From NCBI RefSeq assembly GCF_036785885.1, contig NC_092312.1, positions 12,232,001 through 12,296,000 on the forward strand: a DNA stretch of 64,000 bases, given 5' to 3'. A model generated the notes under the pieces. That model saw nothing but the letters and a program-made list of their open reading frames with translations. It was not told the origin of the DNA and ran no database searches. The position numbers and the translations under genes were made by a program. This document shows, one piece after another, positions 426-60,122 of the stretch. This DNA is from Coffea arabica (taxonomy: Eukaryota; Streptophyta; Magnoliopsida; Gentianales; Rubiaceae). The stretch's first letter is position 1. Every line of letters starts with the position of its first letter.

Positions 426-586
426 CAAGAAAATCGATATCCCTAACCAAACATCTTAGCAGATTTTAAGCGTCTCCAAAGAGATTCTCAATTAAAGGTT
501 CGTTTTCATAGCATCGATTGTTTTCCGTTCTTTGTTCTAATTTTAGTGCAGGTTCTCCCCGAAACTTAATTATCAAACAAATCATC

Positions 587-1123
587 ATGCAGACCTTAGA
601 GTACGTGGAAAAACCAAAATCACAAAATTCTTGTGTTTTCATGCAGGACAAAGAGAGCAAGAATGAAGAAAATCCCCACAAAAAGGGAGAGGAGGCAATC
701 CCTGATGGAATAATGCGTGAAGTTTCTGTTGGGAAGGGATTATCTGGAGCCCTGAAGCTGTTGTTAGATCAAGGATGTCTCAAGGAAACTAAAGAATTGA
801 GTAATCCGAAAACGGGCTCGAAAACAAGCAAGCTTGGCGGGATTTATGATGATCGGGGACAAAGGGAGATAATCATTGAGAGAAGAGATGAGCTTGGAAA
901 TGTCATGAATGAAAAAGAAGCTTTTCGCCAACTTTGTTATAAGTTTCAAGGGAAGAGGCCTGGTAAAACTAAACAAGACAAGCGTATGCGGAGGATCGAG
1001 AGGGAGAAGAATGTGAAGCTATCGTCCCAGAATTCTGAAGAAAGTATGGTGCTAATGGATAATGCTTTGAAGAAGCTTCAAAAACCTTATCTTGTTATCG
1101 AAGGGAAAAAAAGGGCTACATGA
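587..1123 (+). CDS. Free-standing C-terminal fragment of SART-1/DOT2 splicing factor
   Basis: The protein resembles the C-terminal part of plant DOT2, the SART-1 (U4/U6.U5 tri-snRNP-associated) family: VGKGLSGALKLLLDQGCLKE, then KLGGIYDD, IERRDELGNVM, EKEAFRQLCYKFQGKRPGK and KPYLVIEG follow in the family order. Full DOT2 proteins are several hundred residues long. Here only about 150 family residues are present, after a short unrelated-looking lead, and the family's last ~50 residues are absent. I start at Met 587; the frame is open from 518, and Met 641 is another option. Just before the stop is a run of seven A. The next frame continues open to a strong GTAAGT donor at 1206, so either a frameshift has occurred or the true 3' end is spliced. 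A TATA box lies upstream. It is either a duplicated, shortened paralogue that is still expressed, or a decaying copy. Confidence 0.72.
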   Translation: MQTLEYVEKPKSQNSCVFMQDKESKNEENPHKKGEEAIPDGIMREVSVGKGLSGALKLLLDQGCLKETKELSNPKTGSKTSKLGGIYDDRGQREIIIERRDELGNVMNEKEAFRQLCYKFQGKRPGKTKQDKRMRRIEREKNVKLSSQNSEESMVLMDNALKKLQKPYLVIEGKKRAT

Positions 1124-2744: not shown

Positions 2745-5700
2745 TTACTCGGCTAACAGGGTACAGGCAAGCAGATCTTGAACGAAAACAGCTCGCCCAG
2801 TAGCTTGTCTCATTCTTTTTTCTCGCTCTTCGTGACTTAAGGATGACTCGAAACTGCAAAGATGGTTACATAGGTGATAAAGAAAAGTGGTGGATAGACA
2901 TGTAGAAAGATTGTATGACAAGAGACAACAGTTGCAGGAATACAAAAAAGCAACTCACGGTAAGGCATTATAGACAAATAAAGAAAGTTCCTCAGTTCAC
3001 ATTATCTATTACGTTTTACTACGGCTGCAAATCAAGCTTTATCTGGGATAATTCTTTCATTAATCCACGTCTTCATCAAGTCAAAATGAAACCCAAAAGT
3101 GAGCATTATAAACAGCCTTTGTTATTATGTAATAAAACAAGACCAAGATCTTATCCAGCCCTCTTCTGCTTTTACTAAATGAGTCTTGGAATTGAAATGA
3201 TAGAACTCATGTTGCTCTGTTCCTTGTATACCACAAAACATCTCAGAGCTGTTTAATTTTCTTCCCAAAGATTAAACTCAGGAAAATAATGAGGACTTTC
3301 TTAAAGGTTTAAGCATTTTCGCTTCCTTACAAAATTAATCATGAAAAACAGCCGTCTGCAGTTACAGATACAGGAACTCAAAGATCATTTCCTGAGGCGG
3401 TGAACAACATAAAGACTCCTCGAAGATTGAATACTGAAGCTTAACAATACTATCTTGTCTTATTTTTTACCATAGTAGAAAATGTCATGCAGTTGTAAGG
3501 GTTTGAAGCCCCTAACCTCCTGCAGTTTTGACTCTTCAAACAAAAATTGCACTAAGTAATGGGTGGTCCTAGATTGAAGCTGTGTATGCATGACACCATC
3601 CATACAGGATTCATTCATTCATGCTAACAGATCGACCAGACAAAGCATGCTCCAAATGAATGGCAAGTTAGCTTTGGGTGCCTAGTGCTCTTACAGTTCA
3701 TTGACCTGTCAGCGAATAGAAAATGGCATCTCAAACGCTCAGTAGTCCTCCTATAAATCTGGAAGTAAACAAAAGTTGTGGAGGACCATTGGCCAAAGTC
3801 AAGCAAAATATGTCTAGAATATCAAGTCAACTGAATTAAAAAGCGGTTCTTTGGTAACTCTCTTAAGCTATAAACCATCACCAAGCCAAGTTAATGGGTG
3901 CAACTAAAATATTTGTTCCATTTCCATTCCTCATGATGAATCATTGTGGCAAGGGGCGCCAGTTCTACAGCACATGAAGACTTATCAATCATAACAAGTA
4001 GAATTACAGCTATAATATTTAAGTTACATCAACGTACTCTTATAGATTTTGGATTTATTTACTCCTTTCTGCAGTTAGAGATATACTGCCTTAAAAATTG
4101 CAAGCTATTAATGCAGGAACTACAAAATCAACAAACAACCTAGATAATTAATCTTCATCCAAGCTCTATCCAGCCCATCATTGGCCAATTTCAACAAGAA
4201 AATAGAGCAACTACTAAAGGTAAGGAATTAAGCTTTGTGTTCTTCTCATAGCATCTCATTTCCTATAAATGGAATACCATTATGCTTATGCTCCTAGCTG
4301 GTTCTTCCATTCACTTCTAAAACATACTGTGGCATGCATGTATTCTAGTCGTGGAAACTATGTGACTTACAGTAATCTCCAAATTAGTGTATAATATAGA
4401 CATAAACTACTTGAACATACTGATTAAGCTACCTCGATTTCCATGTATGCTGTAATGGCATGGACTTCGTTGATGTGTCCTCAATACTGGACACCAAAGT
4501 TTTTGAAATTTCATCCGCTTCAGATGCAGGAAAATTCAGAACAAGAGAAGAAAGTAGTGGATCAGCCATTGCACCAGATGAGGTTGCATTGTTCGATCGG
4601 TACCCACTGCCACCTAAAAGAACCTGTAAATGGGCCTCCCTAAGATCCCTCCCCAGCAGAGAGAGTGCCTGACTACTGGGAACTGCAACTCTACGTAGTC
4701 TACGACGTCGCTGCAAGTAATCTTAAGTTAAAGAAATAATGAAATGATCGAAGGACGAGCAAATTGTTCATTATAATGCAGCTTTAACTATGTAATGTGA
4801 AGGTTTACTATGAAGCCAATAGAATATGAATATAAAAGTTCCACTTTAAAGGATATCTTGAATAAATGTCCATGTTGCAACGTGATATGACTCAGCATGT
4901 TTCTTGCAACTTTAATAGAGCAAACTGGACAAACCTGCAAGAAAAATGTGAATTCATTATGACAGTCTTCATTTTAAAGTTAATACTAAATAAAAAATAG
5001 TAAGTGATACAAAAAGCATCCAACAGAAGAATACATGCATGGAAGACGGAAACTCTCTTGCTGTCTCTCACACTGGCAACCACCCTCTTTTACTAACAAA
5101 CAGACTAATGGCAGAGTTCAATAAATTGTATCCCGGAAGTGCTTTTTTTACCAACCTAATTGTGATAACCCAAGCGCTTAGACCACAATTGAAGTATAAA
5201 TCCCTGGAAACCATTAACATTTCAGTAAAGCACAAGGGGAAATAGGAAATTTACTCAACACTACCATGCATTCAGGTGAGTCATTAAACATAAAAGCACT
5301 CCTACAATGAATTATGTCTTTCCAATTAGTGAAGGATTTAGCAAACTACATACTTTATCTAGCATTTGAAAAACCGTGACCCAGACCAGTGACAACAGCT
5401 GTTGAAGCTGTTTTAACTTGCAACAGGCATATATATGACCCTATAGAACACCTCTAGTTTTGGATTTTTTTCAACACCCCTATAACTGATTAGTGGCAAG
5501 CTCATTGCAACTATAATAGCCAACTGCAAGAAAGAAAAGAGTTGACAACAAAATTAAAATATTTCCAAAAGAAAGGGTTAACATGCATACCATTTACCAG
5601 ATATTGCGTCCATCTAGCAAAGTTATCATAATGATATGGAAAACAACCAATAGTCATAACCACAGTTAGCTTCTTACTGACCAGGAAAACTAAGGAAAAT

Positions 5701-6949
5701 TCTGCCCTAGACTATCTCCAAAATTCTAGCCTAGGAGAGTCAAATGTTCCCCCCACCCCCAAGAAAAAGTTTTGAGAATCCTTCCCAGCCTTAGGTTTCC
5801 ACTGTGCTGGTGATTTAACTCTTCTCCTTCCCTTCGCATTTAAACCAGGTTATACTGTAGATATAGCCTGAATAGAATTACCCAAAACTCATGCCTCTCA
5901 TGCACAACAATGAAATATACAAATTTGAGGAAACAAGAATAAGAGAAATGCCCAAAAGGTTTGGTGCAATTGGTCAGGACTCAGGAAGTCAGAGGAGGTT
6001 CAGATTCAGTCTTCAAACCCACAGAAAGGTGGTTTCATTAATTCACACAAAATTAATTTATACTCCCTTCAATGCCTCAATCTCTTGCACCCTAACCCCC
6101 GCCAAACCAATGCTTTCGACCCTCATCCGAACCCCAAAGCAAAAAGCAGCACACCCAAGAAAGGGGGAAAAAGGGTCAAAACATATCCTTTGGCAATAAA
6201 TCTGAACCTAACTCTGCTTCCTTATATAATGTGCAGACAAAAGTATTAGAGCCTATACAAACCAAATAAATACCCAAGATGGTGACGTCCCAACCTACTA
6301 AATAGAGTCAAGATTTACTTTTTCACCCATTTAGCCAACATTTCCTTCACTAAAATGGCAAAAAAGACAGAAATTAGCAGAATATAACTCTAAGCTCAAA
6401 TTTGCATGCACCAATCCCTTTTCAAATCCTAAAATCACTTTTTTTTTCATTTACAGCGCCAAGATTACCAAATTTGAACAAAAGTACAACAAAGATCAGA
6501 ATTTGACAACACAAAAGAGAGTGATCAGCACATTTCCCAGAAACAAAAGGTAGCAAATATTAAAAAAGAAAAAAAAAAAAAGAAAACTCACGGAAACTTT
6601 GGACTCGCAAGAATGCTCATCTTCAAGATGTGAGCAAAGGGATGCAATATCAAAGTCTTCGTAACAATACGGGCATGGAAAATCGGGTCGAATCTCCTCT
6701 TCCACCTCGAAATCATCAATATTTAACCGATCTGAAAAATTCAACGCGGCCATCCCCACAAAATAAAGCCAAAACATGTTTCAGATCACTCAAAGAAAAC
6801 ACAACAAATATTTATTCAGAAATGAAATATAAATACCAACCCAATTGAGAGCTCTGATGTTGGCTGCTATGGCTGTGATGATGGTGATGCTGCAAGTTGA
6901 ATTGGCGCTTAGCAGCCGCGAGGCGAGAGGTCCAGAAATCAGAGTCCAT
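2745..6949 (-). CDS. Di19 (drought-induced 19) zinc-finger protein, 5 exons
   Basis: The spliced protein is 239 residues. Exons on the minus strand are 6949-6841, 6731-6592, 4934-4857, 4716-4433 and 2853-2745, and all phases agree. It starts MDSDFWTSRLAAAKRQ, typical of Di19. A His/Ser-rich stretch follows, then two paired C2H2-type fingers: CPYC at about residue 56 and CPVC at about 85, the second ending HITLQHGHLF. Next come a basic RRRRLRR nuclear-localisation-like patch (about 112-118) and the conserved C-terminal EKRMRQATGRAVFVQDLL motif. Known Di19 proteins are nuclear, stress-responsive transcription-related factors and calcium-dependent kinase substrates; that role is inferred from family. 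Intron 3 is an AT-AC intron (separate entry). Introns 2 and 4 are each about 1.6 kb. Length and order match the family, so I read it as intact. Confidence 0.95.
4717..4856 (-). other. U12-type AT-AC intron in the Di19 gene
   Basis: Minus strand: exon 3 ends ...TTCAAG and the intron opens ATATCCTTT (4856-4848), an exact match to the minor-spliceosome 5' splice site. The intron ends TTAC, with a branch-site-like TTCTTTAAC at 4735-4727, one mismatch from TTCCTTAAC. The likely branch A at 4728 is 11 nt from the intron end, the usual spacing. Splicing this way gives HLFK|LQRRRRLRR, as expected for Di19; a GT-AG choice at this junction does not. Length 140 nt. Confidence 0.92.
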
Positions 6950-9117: not shown

Positions 9118-9566
9118 TTATATTATTACACGTATATTTGTCTACAAAAACTCAAAAAACTTTTTATATTCAAATGGGTTCGCCAATTCTCGTCCAAGCG
9201 ATTGGTCCTTGAAACCCAGTGAAAAGATGCGGGAGGTCCAAGAGTTGGGGCCCAACCCAACAAAAAGGGCAAAAAATAAAAAACTGATAAATTTCAAGAA
9301 CTCAAAAATTACGCAATGTCATAAGCAGGAAGAGTAACTAGGAACTAGAAGTGACTTTTACGACGTCGTACAATTTTATTTCAGTTTCCGTTTTGCTTTT
9401 AACCGTCGCTTGATCGCCCAAATTGGGAGTCAAATCCTCTATCCCTTCAATTGCCTCAAAATTAGGGTTAGGGCTTTTTCCTCCTCGTTCTAACAGAAGC
9501 GCCTACGCCAAAACCCCCTTTCTATATATATCTATCTTTCGACAACCAACATCTCATCTCAAGTCA

Positions 9567-11194
9567 ATGGCAAGCAGAGGCCCAGCAACCTATCAACATT
9601 CCAGGCGGGGCGGCGGCGGCGGCGGAGCAGGAGGAGCTAATGCTGTTGCGAAGCCGGGATTAAGAAAACCAGTGTTTGTAAAGGTGGATCATTTGAAACC
9701 TGGGACAGCTGGGCACACTTTAACTGTTAAGGTCTTGGAATCCAACACTGTTCTGAATAAAAAGCCCCGAAACCCATCGTCGTTTCGTGGTCCATCGTTC
9801 CAACAACAGCAGCCCAGTCGCATCGCTGAGTGTCTTGTTGGTGATGAAACGGGAACTATTCTCTTCACTGCCCGTAACGAGCAAGGTCCAATCTAAAATT
9901 TTTTTAAAAGGTTTTAGATGATTTATCTATTTATTTATTCTTTTGCTTTTTCCCCGGTCTCTCTCTCTCTCTTTTTTTTGGGGGGGGGGGTGGTGAGGTG
10001 CTTGGTTAGTTCTTGGGTTTGGTGAATTACTTGCCGGTCTGAATTTAAGGTGGATTAGTTATTGTTGTACGGTATGGAGTCAAGGAAATAATTAGTACTC
10101 GGCGGAAAGGAGACCGAATAGGTGTGCACCTTGGTTCACTCGGTGTAAATTTAGTAATATTTGATGATATATTCATTCAAAATTTTTACTTTGTGCGTAG
10201 ACAATGTTTCAAATGTGGGAAATTACAATATGAGCTGTGTATGTTGTGCAAGATATCTGAATGTTTAAACACTGTTTTCTGATGATTTTTTCACGCTGAA
10301 ATGTCTTTTCGTTTAATGAGAAGATATGCATCCTTTGATTTTCAGACCTAAAAAGAAATAATAATAATGTCACCAAAAACTCAAACTTAGATGAGAAGGG
10401 CTGAATTTCTCTTGAATTTATTTTGACTTGTCGAGTTGTTATTTGTTTGTCATTTTAAGCTCCTGCTTGAAGGGTTAGGTGCGCTAGCTGTAGAACTTCT
10501 GATGGTGCAATACAGCTGATAGTCTTTAACCTTATGTTCCTCCCTGGTTGTCAGCGTTTTTTAGGCCAATTTGGTGAGGTTATGTTAGGGGGCTATTTGT
10601 GACTGAACTAGATGTCTTTCACATTATACTTGACTAAATGGACCGAAAAATTTATGATTTTCACTTTGTTGTCATCTTACGTCCCCAGCATAATGGCTGC
10701 AGTGTTTGTGGAAATGGTATTAATTTGTAATGCTTCTTGCATTTGTGTTTTCAATTTGAAGTGCTTGATTTCTAGAATTTCATCCCCTTGTTTATTCTAG
10801 TGGGGTTATTTACTTTCATTGCCATTTAGGGGACTACATACTTGCAGCGGCTAAGTGAACATGTTGCTTTGTCAGCTTATTAGAATATATGACTTACTTT
10901 GAAGGTTGTGTTCTTGTGCTAAAAGAGTTCAGGCATTTTATAAATTGTTAACTTCTAGCTAGAAGAAGAGTGAGCTTCCTGACTGTTTTATTCATTGCAG
11001 TTGAATTGATGAAGCCAGGCAATACTGTCATCCTTCGCAATGCAAAAATTGACATGTTCAAGGGTTCGATGAGGCTAGCTGTTGATAAATGGGGCCGCAT
11101 TGAGGTGACAGAACCTGCAAAATTTGCAGTTAAAGAAGACAACAATTTGTCCTTGGTAGAGTATGAGTTGGTGAATGTAGCCGAAGAATCTTGA
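9567..11194 (+). CDS. OB-fold single-stranded nucleic-acid-binding protein (At4g28440-like), 2 exons
   Basis: Exons are 9567-9885 and 11001-11194 with a GT-AG intron in phase 1; the protein is 170 residues. Start MASRGPATY is chosen because what precedes it in frame does not look like the family. A Gly-rich tract (GGGGGGAGGA, from a CGG-rich run) is followed by the OB-fold: KPVFVKVDHLKPGTAGHTL, VKVLESN, IAECLVGDETGTILFTARNEQ, then across the splice VELMKPGNTVILRNAKIDMF, MRLAVDKWGRIE and EDNNLSLVEYELVNV. This order and the motifs match the plant At4g28440-like family, related in fold to SOSS-B/hSSB1 single-strand-binding proteins. The precise role in plants is not shown here. Both exons are open and family length is normal, so the gene looks functional. 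Confidence 0.93.
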
Positions 11195-34816: not shown

Positions 34817-35160
34817 TGTCAGCCCAGCAGATATGAAGACATTATTGGAACGGCACCGTTTAAGGAATTGGGGAAATTACTGGGTGGAACGGCACCGTTT
34901 AGGAGCTTAGGGCAATTACTTAGCCAAACGGCATCGTTTGGCCAATTGATCAGTTAGTTACGATTAGTTAGTTTCTGACAATAAATGGGACCCACAGCTT
35001 GTAACAGATTTAGTTATCAGAATTGAATTTGTCTCCTTTTTCTCTCTAATCTTTTTTTCTCTCTCGCTACTCTCTCTCTCTCTCTCCCTCTTTCCCAGAT
35101 TTCCTTTTCTTCTTTACTGATTCACTAACAATTCGCCACCATTGATTCAAGTCCCTGACA
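34817..35160 (+). repeat. Left LTR of the Ty3/Gypsy element
   Basis: 344 bp, TGTCAG...CTGACA. The first third holds three spaced copies of an ACGGCACCGTTT-like palindrome; the last third holds a CTCTCT-rich tract. Confidence 0.97.
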
Positions 35161-35162
35161 AA

Positions 35163-35176
35163 TTGGTACCAGAGCT
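35163..35176 (+). other. Primer-binding site of the Ty3/Gypsy element
   Basis: TTGGTACCAGAGCT, just after the left LTR, resembles the common plant site TTGGTATCAGAGCC used with initiator tRNA-Met. Confidence 0.85.
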
Positions 35177-38100
35177 AGCGGAATCCTTGGACACAATCAT
35201 GGCGGAAAACACCAGATTCAAGACCTTGGAAGAACAAGTGAGGAAACAGGAGGCTAAGCTACAAGAAATCATGGAGAATCTTCAATCTTCGCAATCGTCG
35301 CAGCAGCAGCTCAGAGGAGAGATTCGTCAAGAACTGGAAGAGAACAATAGGCGCATGGAAAGCTTGATAACTGGAATGGAGCAGAAATTTGGCGCTTTCT
35401 TGGAACAAAAATTCAGCTCAATCATGCTGAATGTGGCTGTTGCGAGGGACAAGCTGCCAGATGAAGAAGCCAGGGGAAGAACAGAACAGGCACCGCCACT
35501 GCTGCCGACTCCCCCTCCGCAATTCAGATTGCATCCAGACGCAGAAGTTACGCGTGCTTTCAGGCATGAAGGTAGAATTCTAGCGCCAAATCCCCCAAAA
35601 CTTGATTTACAATTATTCTCAGGAGAAAATCCGAGAGATTGGCTGCGAAAATGTAACAAGTATTTCATTAACTACCAAATTCCGAATGAGCAGAAATTAG
35701 CCATTGTAGAGATGTATCTGGAGGGTAAGGCAGATAGGTGGTTCCAAGGGGTTAGGATTGAGAAACCTAGACTATCCTGGGAAGAATTTGGGGAGATTCT
35801 GTGTAAACGATTCAATGAGAATGGTTATAAGGACATAATTGAGGAATTCAACAAACTACAACAGGAAGGGAGTGTGGAAGAGTACCAGGAGAGGTTTGAG
35901 GAACTAAAGCCACTAATGTTGGCCAGGAACAGTAATTTGGATGAGAGCTACTTTACCTCCAGTTTCATCAGTGGCTTGAAAGAAGAAATTAAGCCTATGG
36001 TGAAGATGCTGAGACCGACTACACTATCAGAGGCCTTTGAGATCTCGCTGTGGCAAGAACGCAACATCAAAATCCAGATCAGAGGAGTTAGAGAAGGCCA
36101 CAGAAATGTTGCAGAAAGTAAGTTTGGCATGACCAAAGGCACGACTCCTATGGCAGGCAGCACCAACACTTACCAGATACCCTCAACTGGAAATTTCAGG
36201 AACACCAGATTTAAGAATGTACAAACTGACCTTCAGGATTCTAAGAGAATTTCACCTCAAGAAATTCAGCACAGAAGGAGCCTGGGACTGTGCCTTAAGT
36301 GTGGGGACAAGTATGGACCTGGACACCAATGTAAGCCAGGACACTTAAACCTTCTGATCAGCGAAGAGGAGGAGGAATCAATGTTTGAAGATGCATTGGG
36401 AGAACAAGACGACCAAACTGGACACCCTGGTCAAGTGATGGACATGTCCCTGCATGCATTGTCGGAGGCCTTAAAAAGAAAGACTATCACACTGACAGGG
36501 AAGCTGGATGGAGAGGAGGTGTTGATTTTAGTAGATACTGGTAGCTCTGATAGCTACATCAACAGTGAGTTAGTCATTGGCATGGATATCAAGTACCAAA
36601 TGGTTTCAAATCCTTTTTCTGTGATCATGGGGAATGGCACCTGTGTTAACAGTAATGCAATCTGTCCAAGTGTGATGTGGGAAATCAATCAGTACAAGTT
36701 TAGGTTTGATCTTAAAGTAATGGAGTTGGGAGGATGGGATATTATATTGGGAGTGGATTGGATGGTACACTTCAGTCCAATCACATTTGATTTTCATCAG
36801 CTAAGCATTTCTCTATTCAGCCAAGGACAGACAGTACACCTACAAGGACAAGCAGAGAACTGTGACATGGACCTGATCAGAGGAAAGGATTTGAGATATT
36901 TCATTGAGTATAAGAAGCAGATGTGTGCAGCCATGGAATGGAAGCAAAATAAAGATGGAGACGACTATACTATACCCAGAGCAGTGGAAAATATCCTCAG
37001 TGAATATGCTGATGTCTTCAAGACCCCTGATTCCTTACCTCCTAAAAGGAGCATTGACCATGAAATTACTCTGAAGCCAGGATCCCAACCAGTCAAGCTC
37101 AAGCCATACCGTTACCCTCACTCTCAAAAGGAAGAAATAGAAAAACAGGTTACAGAAATGTTGGAGCATGGAATAGTTATACATAGCACCAGTCCCTTTG
37201 CATCTCCAGTGCTGCTAGTTAAAAAGAAAGAAGGCACTTGGAGGTTCTGTGTAGACTATAGAAAATTGAATGAAATGACTGTTAAGGATAAATATCCAAT
37301 ACCAAATGTATAAGAATTATTAGATGAGCTGGCAGAAGCTGTGTTCAAATCAAAGCTGGATCTAACAGCAGGGTATCATCAGATTCGTGTCAAGACTCAG
37401 GATACTCACAAGACAGCATTTCAGACTCATTGTGGCCACTATGAGTTCTTGGTGATGCCTTTTGGCCTTACCAATGCGCCAGCCACCTTTCAATCTCTGA
37501 TGAACCAGGTATTCCAACCATATTTGAGGAAATTCGTTTTGGTATTCTTTGATGATATATTGGTTTACAGTCCTACATTGGAGTCACATGTGCAGCATCT
37601 GAAAATAGTGCTTGATACTCTGAGACAGAACCAACTATATGCAAAGAAATCTAAGTGCTCTTTTGCTCAGAAAACAGTAGACTATTTGGGGCATACTATT
37701 TCTGAAAAGGGTGTTAGTATGGATCAAACTAAGATTGACTGTATTTTGAAGTGGCCTATACCTCAGACTGTGAAGGAATTGAGGAGTTTTTTGGGGTTGA
37801 CTGGGTACTATAGGAGGTTCATACAAGGTTACGGACAAATATGCAAGCCTTTGACTGAACTCTTGAGGAAGGATAGTTTCATATGGAATGCAGGTGCTCA
37901 GAATTCTTTTGAGAAATTAAAGGAATTAATGGTCACTGCACCAGTTCTTAAACTGCCAGATTTCAGTAGGCCTTTCATCTTTGAGACTGATGCCAGTGGT
38001 GGAGGTCTAGGGGCTGTATTAATGCAGGATGGCCATCCTATTGCATTTCTGAGCAAGGCACTATCTCCCAAAAATCTTGGGCTATCTGTGTATGAAAAGG

Positions 38101-39849
38101 AACTCCTTGCTCTAGTAATGGCTGTCACTAAATGAAAGCATTATTTGGTAGGACATCACTTCATCATCAGGACAGATCACCAGTCTCTGAAGTACCTATT
38201 GGACCAGAAACTCAATACTGCTCTACAACACAAGTGGCTGACTAAGTTACTGGGATTGGACTACGAAATCCAATACAAAAAGGGTGCTGAAAATCTGGTT
38301 GCTGATGCACTCTCAAGGAGACAGGGGAGGGATGCCTCAAGGGACAGCAATACTAGTTTCTGTTTGGCCCTATCTGCTGTTAAGCCAGGTTGGATGGAGG
38401 AACTAATTCAAAGTTATGAAAGTGACCTTCACTGGCAAGAGATTATGTCCCAACTACTGCTAGACTCTACATCTCAACCATCCTATACACTAGCAGAAGG
38501 AGTACTCAGATACCAAGGGAAACTGTATGTAGGGACAGGAAATGACATCATGAGCAAATTGGTCTCAGCTCTACATAATTCTGCAATAGGGGGGCACTCA
38601 GGACAGAAGAGTTGCTGGCATAGGATCAAATCCCTGTTTTACTGGCCTGAGCTCAAGAAGGATGTTATTGCCTATATACAAGAGTGTGATGTGTGCCAAA
38701 GAAACAAGTCTGAACATCTTCCATATCCTGGCCTACTTCAGCCCATACCCATCCCTCAAAAGGCTTGGTCCCACATTTCTATGGACTTTATTGAGAAGCT
38801 TCCCAAGTCTCAGGGCTATGACACTATACTGGTTGTAGTAGACAGGTTCACCAAATTTGGACATTTTTTGCTATTGACACATCCCTTCTCAGCTAGGCAG
38901 GTCGCACAAGTGTTCTTGGATAATGTTTTCAGATTGCATGGGTTGCCAGAATCGATCATCACTGACAGGGATAGAGTGTTCACCAGTTGTTTCTGGAAGG
39001 CATTGTTCAAGCTAATGGGGATTCAGCTCAAATACTCTTCTTCTTACCACCCGCAAACAGATGGCCAAAGTGAGAGGCTCAATCAATGTCTGGAATCCTA
39101 TCTGAGGTGCATGACTTGTGAATTTCCATCCCAGTGGAGCAAGTGGATACCTACTGCAGAATGGTGGTACAATTCTGCTTACCACACCAGCTTGGAACTT
39201 TCCCCATTCGAAGCCTTGTTTGGCTATAAACCAACACCTCTTCCTCTAGGACCATACCAGGACTCAGCGATACCTGCTGCAACTCAGACATTACAGGACA
39301 GGGCCAGAATCACTGCTAGCATCAAGGAACACTTATCCAAGACTCAAAATAGGATGAAACACTTTGCTGATAAACACAGGACTGAGCGAGAATTTGTGGT
39401 AGGGGATTGGGTATTCTTAAAATTACAACCTTATAGGCAACAATCTATCTCTGTGCGCAAGTGCTTGAAGCTTTCTGCTAAGTACTATGGTCCTTTCCAG
39501 GTTGAAGAACGGATTGGACATGTAGCTTATAGACTGAAACTCCCTGCAGGGGCCAGGGTGCACCCGGTCTTCCATGTATCCTTACTAAAGAAGAAGGTAG
39601 GTCCTCTCCAACCACTATCAACTACATTACCAGAGTGGGATGAGCATGATCTGTGCCCCCTCCAACCAGAGATGATCCTGAAGAGTAGAGCAATATTACG
39701 TGATGGACAGCCTGTGGTACAACTCTTGGTTAAGTGGAATCACCTCAGTTTTGATGAAGCATCCTGGGAAGATAAAACCTTCATCGAGCACCAATTTCCA
39801 GAATTTTCTTGCAGACTTGCGGACAAGCCTGTTCGCAAGGGGAAGGGAT

Positions 39850-40193
39850 TGTCAGCCCAGCAGATATGAAGACATTATTGGAACGGCACCGTTTAAGGAA
39901 TTGGGGAAATTACTGGGTGGAACGGCACCGTTTAGGAGCTTAGGGCAATTACTTAGCCAAACGGCATCGTTTGGCCAATTGATCAGTTAGTTACGATTAG
40001 TTAGTTTCTGACAATAAATGGGACCCACAGCTTGTAACAGATTTAGTTATCAGAATTGAATTTGTCTCCTTTCTCTCTCTAATCTTTTTTTCTCTCTCGC
40101 TACTCTCTCTCTCTCTCTCCCTCTTTCCCAGATTTCCTTTTCTTCCTTACTGATTCACTAACAATTCGCCACCATTGATTCAAGTCCCTGACA
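39850..40193 (+). repeat. Right LTR of the Ty3/Gypsy element
   Basis: 344 bp, the same length as the left LTR and nearly identical to it. Followed by GGAAA, the right copy of the target duplication. Confidence 0.97.
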
Positions 40194-49383: not shown

Positions 49384-50478
49384 TCAAGGCATGTCATCCT
49401 CGTCCTGGAAGTTCTGGTACTGCTCCTGGTCCTGATAATTGTTATAAGAATTCTGATTATCATTCCAATAGTATCCTCTGTTGTTTGCTCCATATAGGCC
49501 ACGGTTCAAAAGCTGTTCCATGCTAATATCATAAAAGTACTTGCCATTTTCCAAAAACCTCGTATCACTCATCCCTTGCTTCTGCGCTCCACCGTTAGCA
49601 TTTCCGCCATTGTAACTGTAGTAGTTGTTGCTGTTGGATCTTGTATCACTCAAACCTTGTTGCTCTCCATTGTAGTAACTGTTGCTAGCACCATAGTTGT
49701 TCTTGTTGTTTTGGTTGTTGTAGTAGTTGTTTCTGTTGTTGCTTGGATTGGTGTAGCTATTGCCCAACAATTTAGTCTCACCCAAACCTTGTTGCTCATT
49801 GTTGTAGTAAGTGCTTTCACCCAAACCTTGTTTCTCGTTGTTGTAGTAGGTATTTTCACCATTGTAGAAGTTGTTGCTGTTGTAGTTGCTGTTTTGTGGT
49901 CTGTAACCTTCCGGTTCAGTCACATAGGACTCGGTGTTGTAGTTCTTGGGCAAGTACTTGGGGTAGGATTCCCTTGGTTCTTTGTTTTGTGGTCTGTAAC
50001 CTTCCGGTTCAGTCACATAGGACTCGGTGTTGTAGTTCTTGGGCAAGTACTTGGGGTAGGATTCTCTTGGTTCGTTGTTTTGTGGTCTGTAACCTTCTGG
50101 TTCAGTCACATAGGACTCAGTGTTGTAGTTCTTGGGCAAGTACTTGGGGTAGGAATCTCTTGGTTCATTGTTGTATGGAATGTTAGTGGTGGCTTTGTAG
50201 GGTTCACCACTGGGGTTGATGGTTGTGGTGGTGGACGGAGGGAGTTGGCCTGACTCATGGCCATAAAGACCATAGCCACCATTTTCGTTTTCGGGGATGA
50301 AGTTTGGCTCTTGTTCTTGTTTGTTGTTCAATGTCTCCTCACTTCTTGGTACTGCCACTTGGGTCTCTTTTGCACCATTGTTGCTGGGGATTTTGTTGAA
50401 AAGTTGTGGATCTCTGGCGTGAATCTGCAGAGAGGATAAGAGGGTGAGGAGGAAGAGGATGAAAAGATTTTTGGCCAT
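49384..50478 (-). CDS. Protein E6-like secreted repeat protein, single exon
   Basis: 364 residues, uninterrupted. A signal peptide is clear: MAKNLFILFLLTLLSSLQIH then A, with cleavage likely before RDPQ. The C-terminal block QGMSDTRFLENGKYFYDISM followed by NRGLYG is the recognisable part of the cotton-fibre protein E6 family, and the mature protein starts ARD as in that family. In between are three exact-length 31-residue repeats (about residues 101-195; EPRESYPKYLPKNYNTESYV then TEPEGYRPQ) and Asn/Tyr-rich segments with several QQGLGETK/QGLSDTR-like pieces. E6 proteins are extracellular, abundant in fibre or secondary-wall tissue; biochemical role unknown. A TATA box lies 87 bp before the ATG. 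The opposite-strand open frame of 225 codons is a shadow of the repeats. Confidence 0.92.
   Translation of the reverse strand: MAKNLFILFLLTLLSSLQIHARDPQLFNKIPSNNGAKETQVAVPRSEETLNNKQEQEPNFIPENENGGYGLYGHESGQLPPSTTTTINPSGEPYKATTNIPYNNEPRDSYPKYLPKNYNTESYVTEPEGYRPQNNEPRESYPKYLPKNYNTESYVTEPEGYRPQNKEPRESYPKYLPKNYNTESYVTEPEGYRPQNSNYNSNNFYNGENTYYNNEKQGLGESTYYNNEQQGLGETKLLGNSYTNPSNNRNNYYNNQNNKNNYGASNSYYNGEQQGLSDTRSNSNNYYSYNGGNANGGAQKQGMSDTRFLENGKYFYDISMEQLLNRGLYGANNRGYYWNDNQNSYNNYQDQEQYQNFQDEDDMP
49894..50180 (-). repeat. Three tandem 93-bp repeats inside the E6-like gene
   Basis: Start points spaced exactly 93 bp apart (for example CTGTAACCTT at 49901, 49994 and 50087). The repeats are nearly identical at the DNA level, which points to recent duplication or ongoing conversion. 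Confidence 0.93.
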
Positions 50479-50564
50479 GATGGGGAGCTAGGGATGGAGA
50501 GATGGAGGAAGAGAAGGTGCTGTGTAGTGAGTTAGTCTTGTGTGACTTGGTAATGGTTCACTTC

Positions 50565-58406: not shown

Positions 58407-59975
58407 TTATGCTGACATGGCAACCATTGATGCTGGAGCTGGAGCTGCAAGCAGACGTGGACTCAAATACACTTTCAGACCATGCTTCATGAACAAGGTC
58501 AAAGACATCTTTTGTTCAACCCGGTGACCGGGGACCAGTGATAGCCGGTAACGAAGAAGCACTGCTGAAGCCACAGACTTCATTTGGAGGTAAGCCAAGT
58601 CCTTGCCTAAACAAGTTCTCGGTCCACCATTGAACGCGACAAATTTGTAAACATCCTTAGGTTGCTCGAACCGGTCTCCAGCGGTGGAGAGCCACCTCTC
58701 CGGTTTAAACTCCATGCAGTCCTCTCCCCATACAGTCTTCATCCTTCCCATCGAGTATATCGAATAAGTCACCGTTGAACCAGCCGGAACATGCGTCCCG
58801 TCCGGCAAGACATCGTCGGAGACTACATATTTGAAGTCTTCAGGCACTGAGGGGTATAAACGGAGGGTTTCAGCTAATGCAGCTTTAAGATAGACTAACC
58901 TGTCGGCTTCATCAAACACCAATGGCTCTTCAATCCACTTTTCTATGTCATCGCCTCGAGAATCTTGTAAAACGGTGGATAATTCGTTGACGATCTTTTG
59001 CTCAACTCGAGGGTTGTTCATGACAAGCCAGAAGAACCAGCTGAGAGCTACAGAGGAAGTGTCGCGGCCTGCAAGAACAAAGTTGAGCGCAATGCGTTTG
59101 AGGACTGAGCTTGGGAAGAGATTTCCGTCGACATCCCTCTTTTTCATGAAGCGGGATAAGAGATCATCGGACGGAGTTTCTTTACGTGCGTCTAAAGCAT
59201 CAGTCATGTAGGTTTCCACGACCTCAAGGCTTTTCTTTAGTCTCATTTCAGCTCCAAAACCGAAGATTTTCTTCAACCTCCATAAAAAACCGGGGTAGAG
59301 CAATCTTTGCAGTGTTGCTTCAGTCGCTGAATCGAAGGCTATGGCGAAAGGATTTTCGGGTAATTCAGGGGAGAGGGTTTCGGGATCTTTACCGAAGGTA
59401 AGGCCACAAATGTTATCGAATGTCAAGCGTAGTAGCAAGTCCTGCAAGTCCACTGCAATGTGTTCTTTGGAAGCCTTCTCCAGAATAACCCACAACCGGG
59501 TTCTGATGGTCCGGTTCACCCACCTATTCATGGCTTGACGAAGAGTCCTGGTTGTAAACTCGAGGGCAGCAGTTTTTCTCTGTATAAGCCATGTTTCACC
59601 ATCGCTGTTGAATATACCTTGCCCGAGAAGATCATGGAAGGCGGTTTGCCATGTGGGCCCTTTGGGATAGTTATCGAACCGGGTTCGGAGAATGTGTTCG
59701 ATGTTTTTAGGGTGGCATGTGACCGTATAGAACCCTTGTCTACGTGCCAGAAATGGTATACAAATGGTGCTTGTTTGGTACGTGGCAGCTGCGCCGGTGG
59801 ACCGGAGGTTTCCAGCTATCCAGTCGTGAAATCGTCTACGGTTCAAGAATAAAAATGGAAGGCTGCCAAAAAATGGCCAAACTTTTGGACCGGTAAGCTT
59901 TCGAGCTAGAAGATAGAACCATAGGAGATAAGTTGACGTACCAATGGCTATGGTAAAAAGTAACACTGTTTCCAT
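58407..59975 (-). CDS. Cytochrome P450, CYP86A subfamily, fatty-acid omega-hydroxylase
   Basis: 522 residues, single exon, complete. Landmarks: N-terminal membrane anchor (about 1-25), WPFFGSLP proline-rich hinge, [20 protein letters not shown] typical of CYP86, I-helix oxygen-binding AGRDTSS (302-308), ExxR as ETLR (369-372), PERW (425-428), and the haem-binding [10 protein letters not shown] with Cys455. CYP86A enzymes sit on the endoplasmic reticulum and hydroxylate the terminal carbon of C16/C18 fatty acids for cutin and suberin. The subfamily is assigned from overall resemblance to Arabidopsis CYP86A2/A8 and relatives; exact member not determined. All key residues are present and length is normal, so it should be functional. 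Antisense open frames are shadows. Confidence 0.96.
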
Positions 59976-60122
59976 ATTATGATCCGTGATCTAAGTATAT
60001 TGTTGATGATGATCAGTGAAGGATAGGACTTGAGGGAAGTAGAAGGAAAAAGATTGAGTTGGTCTCCCTTTTTTTGACAATGAAGGATTGGTAGTGAATG
60101 AGTAGTGAGATGGAGACCAGTG

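Follow-up and report, generated by a model that had tools for sequence, protein, structure and literature searches.

An AT-AC intron with U12-type splice signals in a plant Di19 gene, a family known for minor-spliceosome use

A minor-spliceosome intron has been described before in the Di19 family. Arabidopsis u11-48k plants are reported to be defective in splicing Di19-2, a gene with a U12 intron (PMC4892727). Di19 was also counted among the genes whose U12 splicing depends on U11/U12-31K (PMC3422263), whereas Di19-2 splicing was described as not significantly altered in 31k knockdowns, which were not rescued by expression of Di19-2 (PMC5853960); as far as the accessible parts of these two papers go, they disagree on the need of Di19 splicing for this protein. 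AT-AC ends are rare, making up on average 0.06% of plant splice-site pairs according to the accessible text of a survey (PMC6310983). A literature search for papers containing at least two of five terms, namely four Arabidopsis Di19 locus names and U12, returned none, and the accessible passages of a paper citing the work on DROL1 and AT-AC introns yielded no Di19 gene list. At the protein level, a C-terminal 'pin' region of DI19 is reported to join it to the plant UBR4/BIG complex, and human UBR4 co-expressed with the KCMF1 pin mutant L318A/F319A/V320S was found to be monomeric (PMC7618180).

The gene concerned here occupies 6949-2745 on the minus strand of the window, i.e. the whole 64-kb stretch of DNA that was analysed, and consists of five exons, all on that strand, coding for a product of 239 aa. 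Exon boundaries were picked by eye and then checked via translation. Exon 1 (6841..6949, 109 nt) starts with an ATG at 6949, which is taken as the start codon; among the boundary pairs listed for its junction with exon 2, GT-AG ends were obtained for 6841/6731 only. Exon 2 (6592..6731, 140 nt) carries the first zinc finger, and exon 3 (4857..4934, 78 nt) the second, with HLFK at its end. The basic LQRRRRLRR stretch and most of the Di19_C domain are encoded by exon 4 (4433..4716), and the end of Di19_C, a pin-like stretch (RAVFVQDLLACTLLAE), and the stop codon by exon 5 (2745..2853). In Pfam, the product matches zf-Di19 (PF05605) at residues 53-105 (E 3.3e-22, 78.9 bits against a cut-off of 27.5), a domain coded across exons 2 and 3, and Di19_C (PF14571) at residues 127-236 (E 1.2e-29, 103.3 bits against a cut-off of 29); the presence of both domains places it among the Di19 proteins. 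It also matches the Di19 chain 9qt9_C (E 8.6e-35). The accessible text of a family study covering 36 Di19 genes from seven species gives four introns for 31 of them (PMC8954995), and the five exons and four introns of this gene fit that usual plan. An Rfam scan of the 64-kb window at gathering thresholds gave no matches. Relatives with their DNA were sought with six short peptide patterns, an approach limited to close relatives: 9 stretches of a viral contig collection and 90 of a prokaryote genome contig collection matched a pattern, and none of them encoded a relative, as expected for a plant gene.

Intron 3 (4717..4856, minus strand, so that 4856 is its 5' end and 4717 its 3' end) is the sole non-GT-AG intron among the four; it has AT-AC ends, a length of 140 nt, an A+T content of 72%, and lies in phase 0. 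Its 5' splice site, ATATCCTTT (4848..4856, minus strand), agrees exactly with the U12-type donor consensus RTATCCTT(T). The putative branch A at 4728 precedes the last base of the intron by 11 nt, and U12 branch sites lie 8-21 nt from the 3' end. The surrounding branch-site match, TTCTTTAAC (4727..4735, minus strand), deviates at one position from TTCCTTRAY, given as the U12 branch-site consensus in the accessible text of a study on CBP20 (PMC5932401). Introns 1, 2, and 4 have GT-AG ends and deviate from RTATCCTTT at 4-5 positions and from the branch consensus at 4. Judged by eye, intron 3 contains no polypyrimidine tract from the branch site to its end (TTAAGATTAC), but the sequence leading into the branch match is T-rich and stays so throughout it. 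The intron interrupts the frame after residue 109, four residues past the end of zf-Di19 at residue 105, giving HLFK / LQRRRRLRR across the junction. With its donor, a branch site near the 3' end, and AT-AC ends fixed by the coding sequence, intron 3 is assigned with high confidence to the U12-type AT-AC introns, which would be excised by the minor spliceosome.

The protein side of this assignment comes from a comparison of possible junctions, each scored against a stretch of 9qt9_C, one solved relative. The 9qt9 structure presumably originates from the study of DI19/KCMF1 and UBR4. All combinations with GT-AG, GC-AG, AT-AC, or AT-AG ends were considered, with donors from 4894 to 4755 and acceptors down to 4634, provided that they left the correct frame, removed at least 60 nt, and kept the joined piece free of stops over its first 100 codons. 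The AT-AC pair 4856-4717 came out top of 111 in-frame junctions with a score of 166 against this single relative, and the next two reached 148. Since 9qt9_C reads LFKLQR across the junction, the LQ coded right after the AC is common to both proteins. A sequence-only reading had proposed an AT-AC U12-type intron at this very place, with an exact minor-spliceosome 5' site, a branch region one base off the consensus, an AC end yielding the family sequence, and a position directly past the second zinc finger; splice signals and best-fitting protein junction bear it out on all these points.

From these signals we infer use of the site in RNA and its pairing with the snRNAs: the partner of U11 would be ATATCCTTT, that of U12 TTCTTTAAC, and the 3' splice site would be the AC lying 11 nt past the branch A. 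Correct removal would link the zinc-finger half of the protein (exons 1-3) to the half with the basic stretch and Di19_C (exons 4-5). Upon retention, translation would continue through 22 codons of the intron to a stop at codon 132, leaving a form of 131 aa that keeps its zf-Di19 match and has no Di19_C match in Pfam; the C-terminal piece gave no alignment with this form. The expectation that retention removes the basic region and the C-terminal part is thereby confirmed. By established rules, a stop far upstream of the last exon junction makes a message a candidate for NMD. As the retention stop sits 355 nt upstream of that junction, the retained message would be such a candidate, or else a source of the 131-aa protein consisting of the zinc-finger part only.

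The most likely reading is an inherited minor intron that is routinely spliced. Its identity is not at stake in the first alternative, which competes with routine splicing only and holds that intron 3 is a regulated gate, stress shifting the efficiency of the minor spliceosome and thereby setting the amount of Di19. The defective splicing of Di19-2 in u11-48k plants (PMC4892727) would suit it, as would the listing of Di19 in a conserved alternatively spliced set from four cereals and Brachypodium, where NMD is mentioned (PMC4578763), the naming of At-Di19-5 as an AS/NMD gene (PMC3591102), and a total usage of AT-AC sites below that of GC-AG sites in plant RNA-seq data (PMC6310983). However, the accessible passages of the two AS/NMD reports (PMC4578763; PMC3591102) do not name the U12 intron as the one retained, and the 31k knockdowns, with Di19-2 splicing not significantly altered and without rescue by Di19-2, argue against it (PMC5853960). 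DI19 is also named as one of the genes in which small exons are skipped in flowers of grp20, the U12 intron not being mentioned in the accessible text (PMC10808074). The earlier suggestion that minor-spliceosome efficiency sets Di19 output under stress therefore found no backing, as a literature search that was short on subscription journals, and in which sources were partly accessible, retrieved no case of a Di19 U12 intron being retained in response to stress. NMD and any regulatory role of the intron are inferred, and the regulated gate appears improbable.

A related idea concerns the pin. In this proposal, the minor intron lies between the half of Di19 that binds zinc and the pin that joins the protein to BIG, so that splicing efficiency would limit the supply of the BIG cofactor, and the retained form, being pin-less, would be barred from the complex. 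The product matches KCMF1 chains weakly (best E 0.00014 for the whole protein, 9hxw_D). In that comparison VFVQDLL, a stretch coded in exon 5, stands opposite LFVQELL of KCMF1, within an alignment of query residues 183-238 (6.6 bits, i-Evalue 60) that is non-significant alone. Because the pin-like stretch is located in exon 5, failed splicing of intron 3 is expected to remove the predicted contact with UBR4/BIG as well. If the proposal were true, minor splicing would limit a cofactor of BIG, an E4 ubiquitin ligase, and not only a transcription factor, tying it to plant protein quality control. A large role for such uncoupling is disfavoured by the lack of rescue of 31k knockdowns by Di19-2 reported in the accessible text (PMC5853960), and the proposal as a whole is regarded as doubtful.

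The remaining alternatives accept an intron in this region and move one or both of its ends. On the minus strand, an AC and an AG acceptor lie six bases apart at 4717-4711 (TTAC/TTGCAG/CG, slashes denoting possible intron ends), both in frame, and use of the AG at 4711 would cost just the LQ with which the basic stretch begins. A U12 intron could accordingly end at this AG (AT-AG, 4856-4711), or both acceptors could be used, giving proteins with and without LQ. The AG is 17 nt from the branch A by hand count; nevertheless, the fit falls to 148, compared with 166, when the LQ present in 9qt9_C is missing, making this version highly unlikely. Equally poor are the prospects of excision by the major spliceosome of the in-frame GT-AG pair 4844-4711 (4711..4844, minus strand; AAA/GTGGAA ... 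TTGCAG/), which is stop-free in the checked stretch and has a fair acceptor in TTGCAG, but whose donor reads as weak next to the major-spliceosome consensus AG/GTAAGT (a comparison by reading, without a score), which likewise reaches 148 as opposed to 166, which inserts ISFK and drops the LQ found in 9qt9_C (HLFK-ISFK-RRRRLRR), and which leaves the exact U12 donor without explanation. An AT-AC variant ending at 4707 (150 nt) entails a different reading frame, with its end 21 nt from the branch A, and was set aside. Judging from these alternative junctions, annotation software that admits GT-AG introns only would presumably splice this gene wrongly and alter the first residues of the basic stretch.

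Chance was considered for the signals of the AT-AC intron 4856-4717 as well. The 9-mer ATATCCTTT has 4 occurrences across the window, where 1.44 are expected, and at least 4 were counted in 6 of 100 shuffles. An AT-AC signature defined by the 8-base donor, a branch site with at most one mismatch, and a length of 60-400 nt has three matches in the window, at two places. Of 200 dinucleotide shuffles, with a mean of 0.635 matches, 70 contained one or more such signatures; the motifs by themselves therefore prove nothing. Taken over both strands of the window, the exact donor 9-mer is present at 4 of 11791 AT starts, and a branch match with at most one mismatch at 8-21 nt at 55 of 6394 AC ends. 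Among the 584 AT..AC pairs spaced exactly 140 nt apart on either strand, one has donor and branch site with at most one mismatch each, namely intron 3; two do so when up to two donor mismatches are allowed. As this lone pair coincides with the junction demanded by protein homology, a chance origin of the signals is very unlikely. The other place with the signature, 6183-6368 on the plus strand, is antisense to intron 2 and has a C at the purine position of the branch site; it is taken as chance, in line with the share of shuffles containing such signatures.

Several other features were observed in the window. An open frame at 512-1123 (plus strand) matches the C-terminal part of the SART-1 family profile (PF03343, E 1.7e-21, profile positions 540-585 of 585). 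SART-1 is a tri-snRNP splicing factor, and the closeness of this frame to the Di19 gene is probably a coincidence. Further on, an open frame at 9414-9896 (plus strand) matches an Ssb-like OB fold (PF21473, E 3.2e-20), and a Ty3/gypsy-type retrotransposon extends over 35121-39869 (plus strand) in three open frames split by stops, of which the first and third, those scanned, match gag, protease, RNase H, integrase, and chromodomain. On the minus strand, a 367-aa open frame at 49384-50487 contains three near-identical repeats of the EPRESYPKYLPKNYNTESYVTEPEGYRPQ type; it has no Pfam match at 0.001, and we take it to resemble the cotton-fibre E6 type. A cytochrome P450 is encoded in a single open frame at 58407-59990 (minus strand; PF00067, E 1.9e-64).

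Compared with described systems, the Di19 product resembles the DI19/KCMF1 cofactor of UBR4 (BIG) in matching the Di19 chain 9qt9_C and, weakly, KCMF1, and DI19 differs from KCMF1 in that the ZZ domain is missing, as far as the accessible text describes them (PMC7618180); this likeness is at the protein level and says nothing on the intron. For the intron, a structural counterpart is intron 4 of CBP20, which is also A+T-rich with AT-AC U12 ends and similarly divides the protein into a conserved core domain and a tail of lower conservation, there containing the nuclear localisation signal of CBP20 (PMC5932401). It belongs to another gene, however, and the accessible text gives it as present in all 10 of the 10 plant species examined, whereas the Di19 intron is seen here in one gene (PMC5932401). 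The closest system is the intron of Arabidopsis Di19-2, which shares the gene family and the minor-spliceosome type; it comes from another species, and, given what the accessible text states, the two are likened by family and type of intron, not by position or terminal dinucleotides. As a minor intron of Di19-2 has already been published, the intron of this gene is a further case of a known type, real but ordinary, and adds one clean AT-AC example to a family known for its use of the minor spliceosome.
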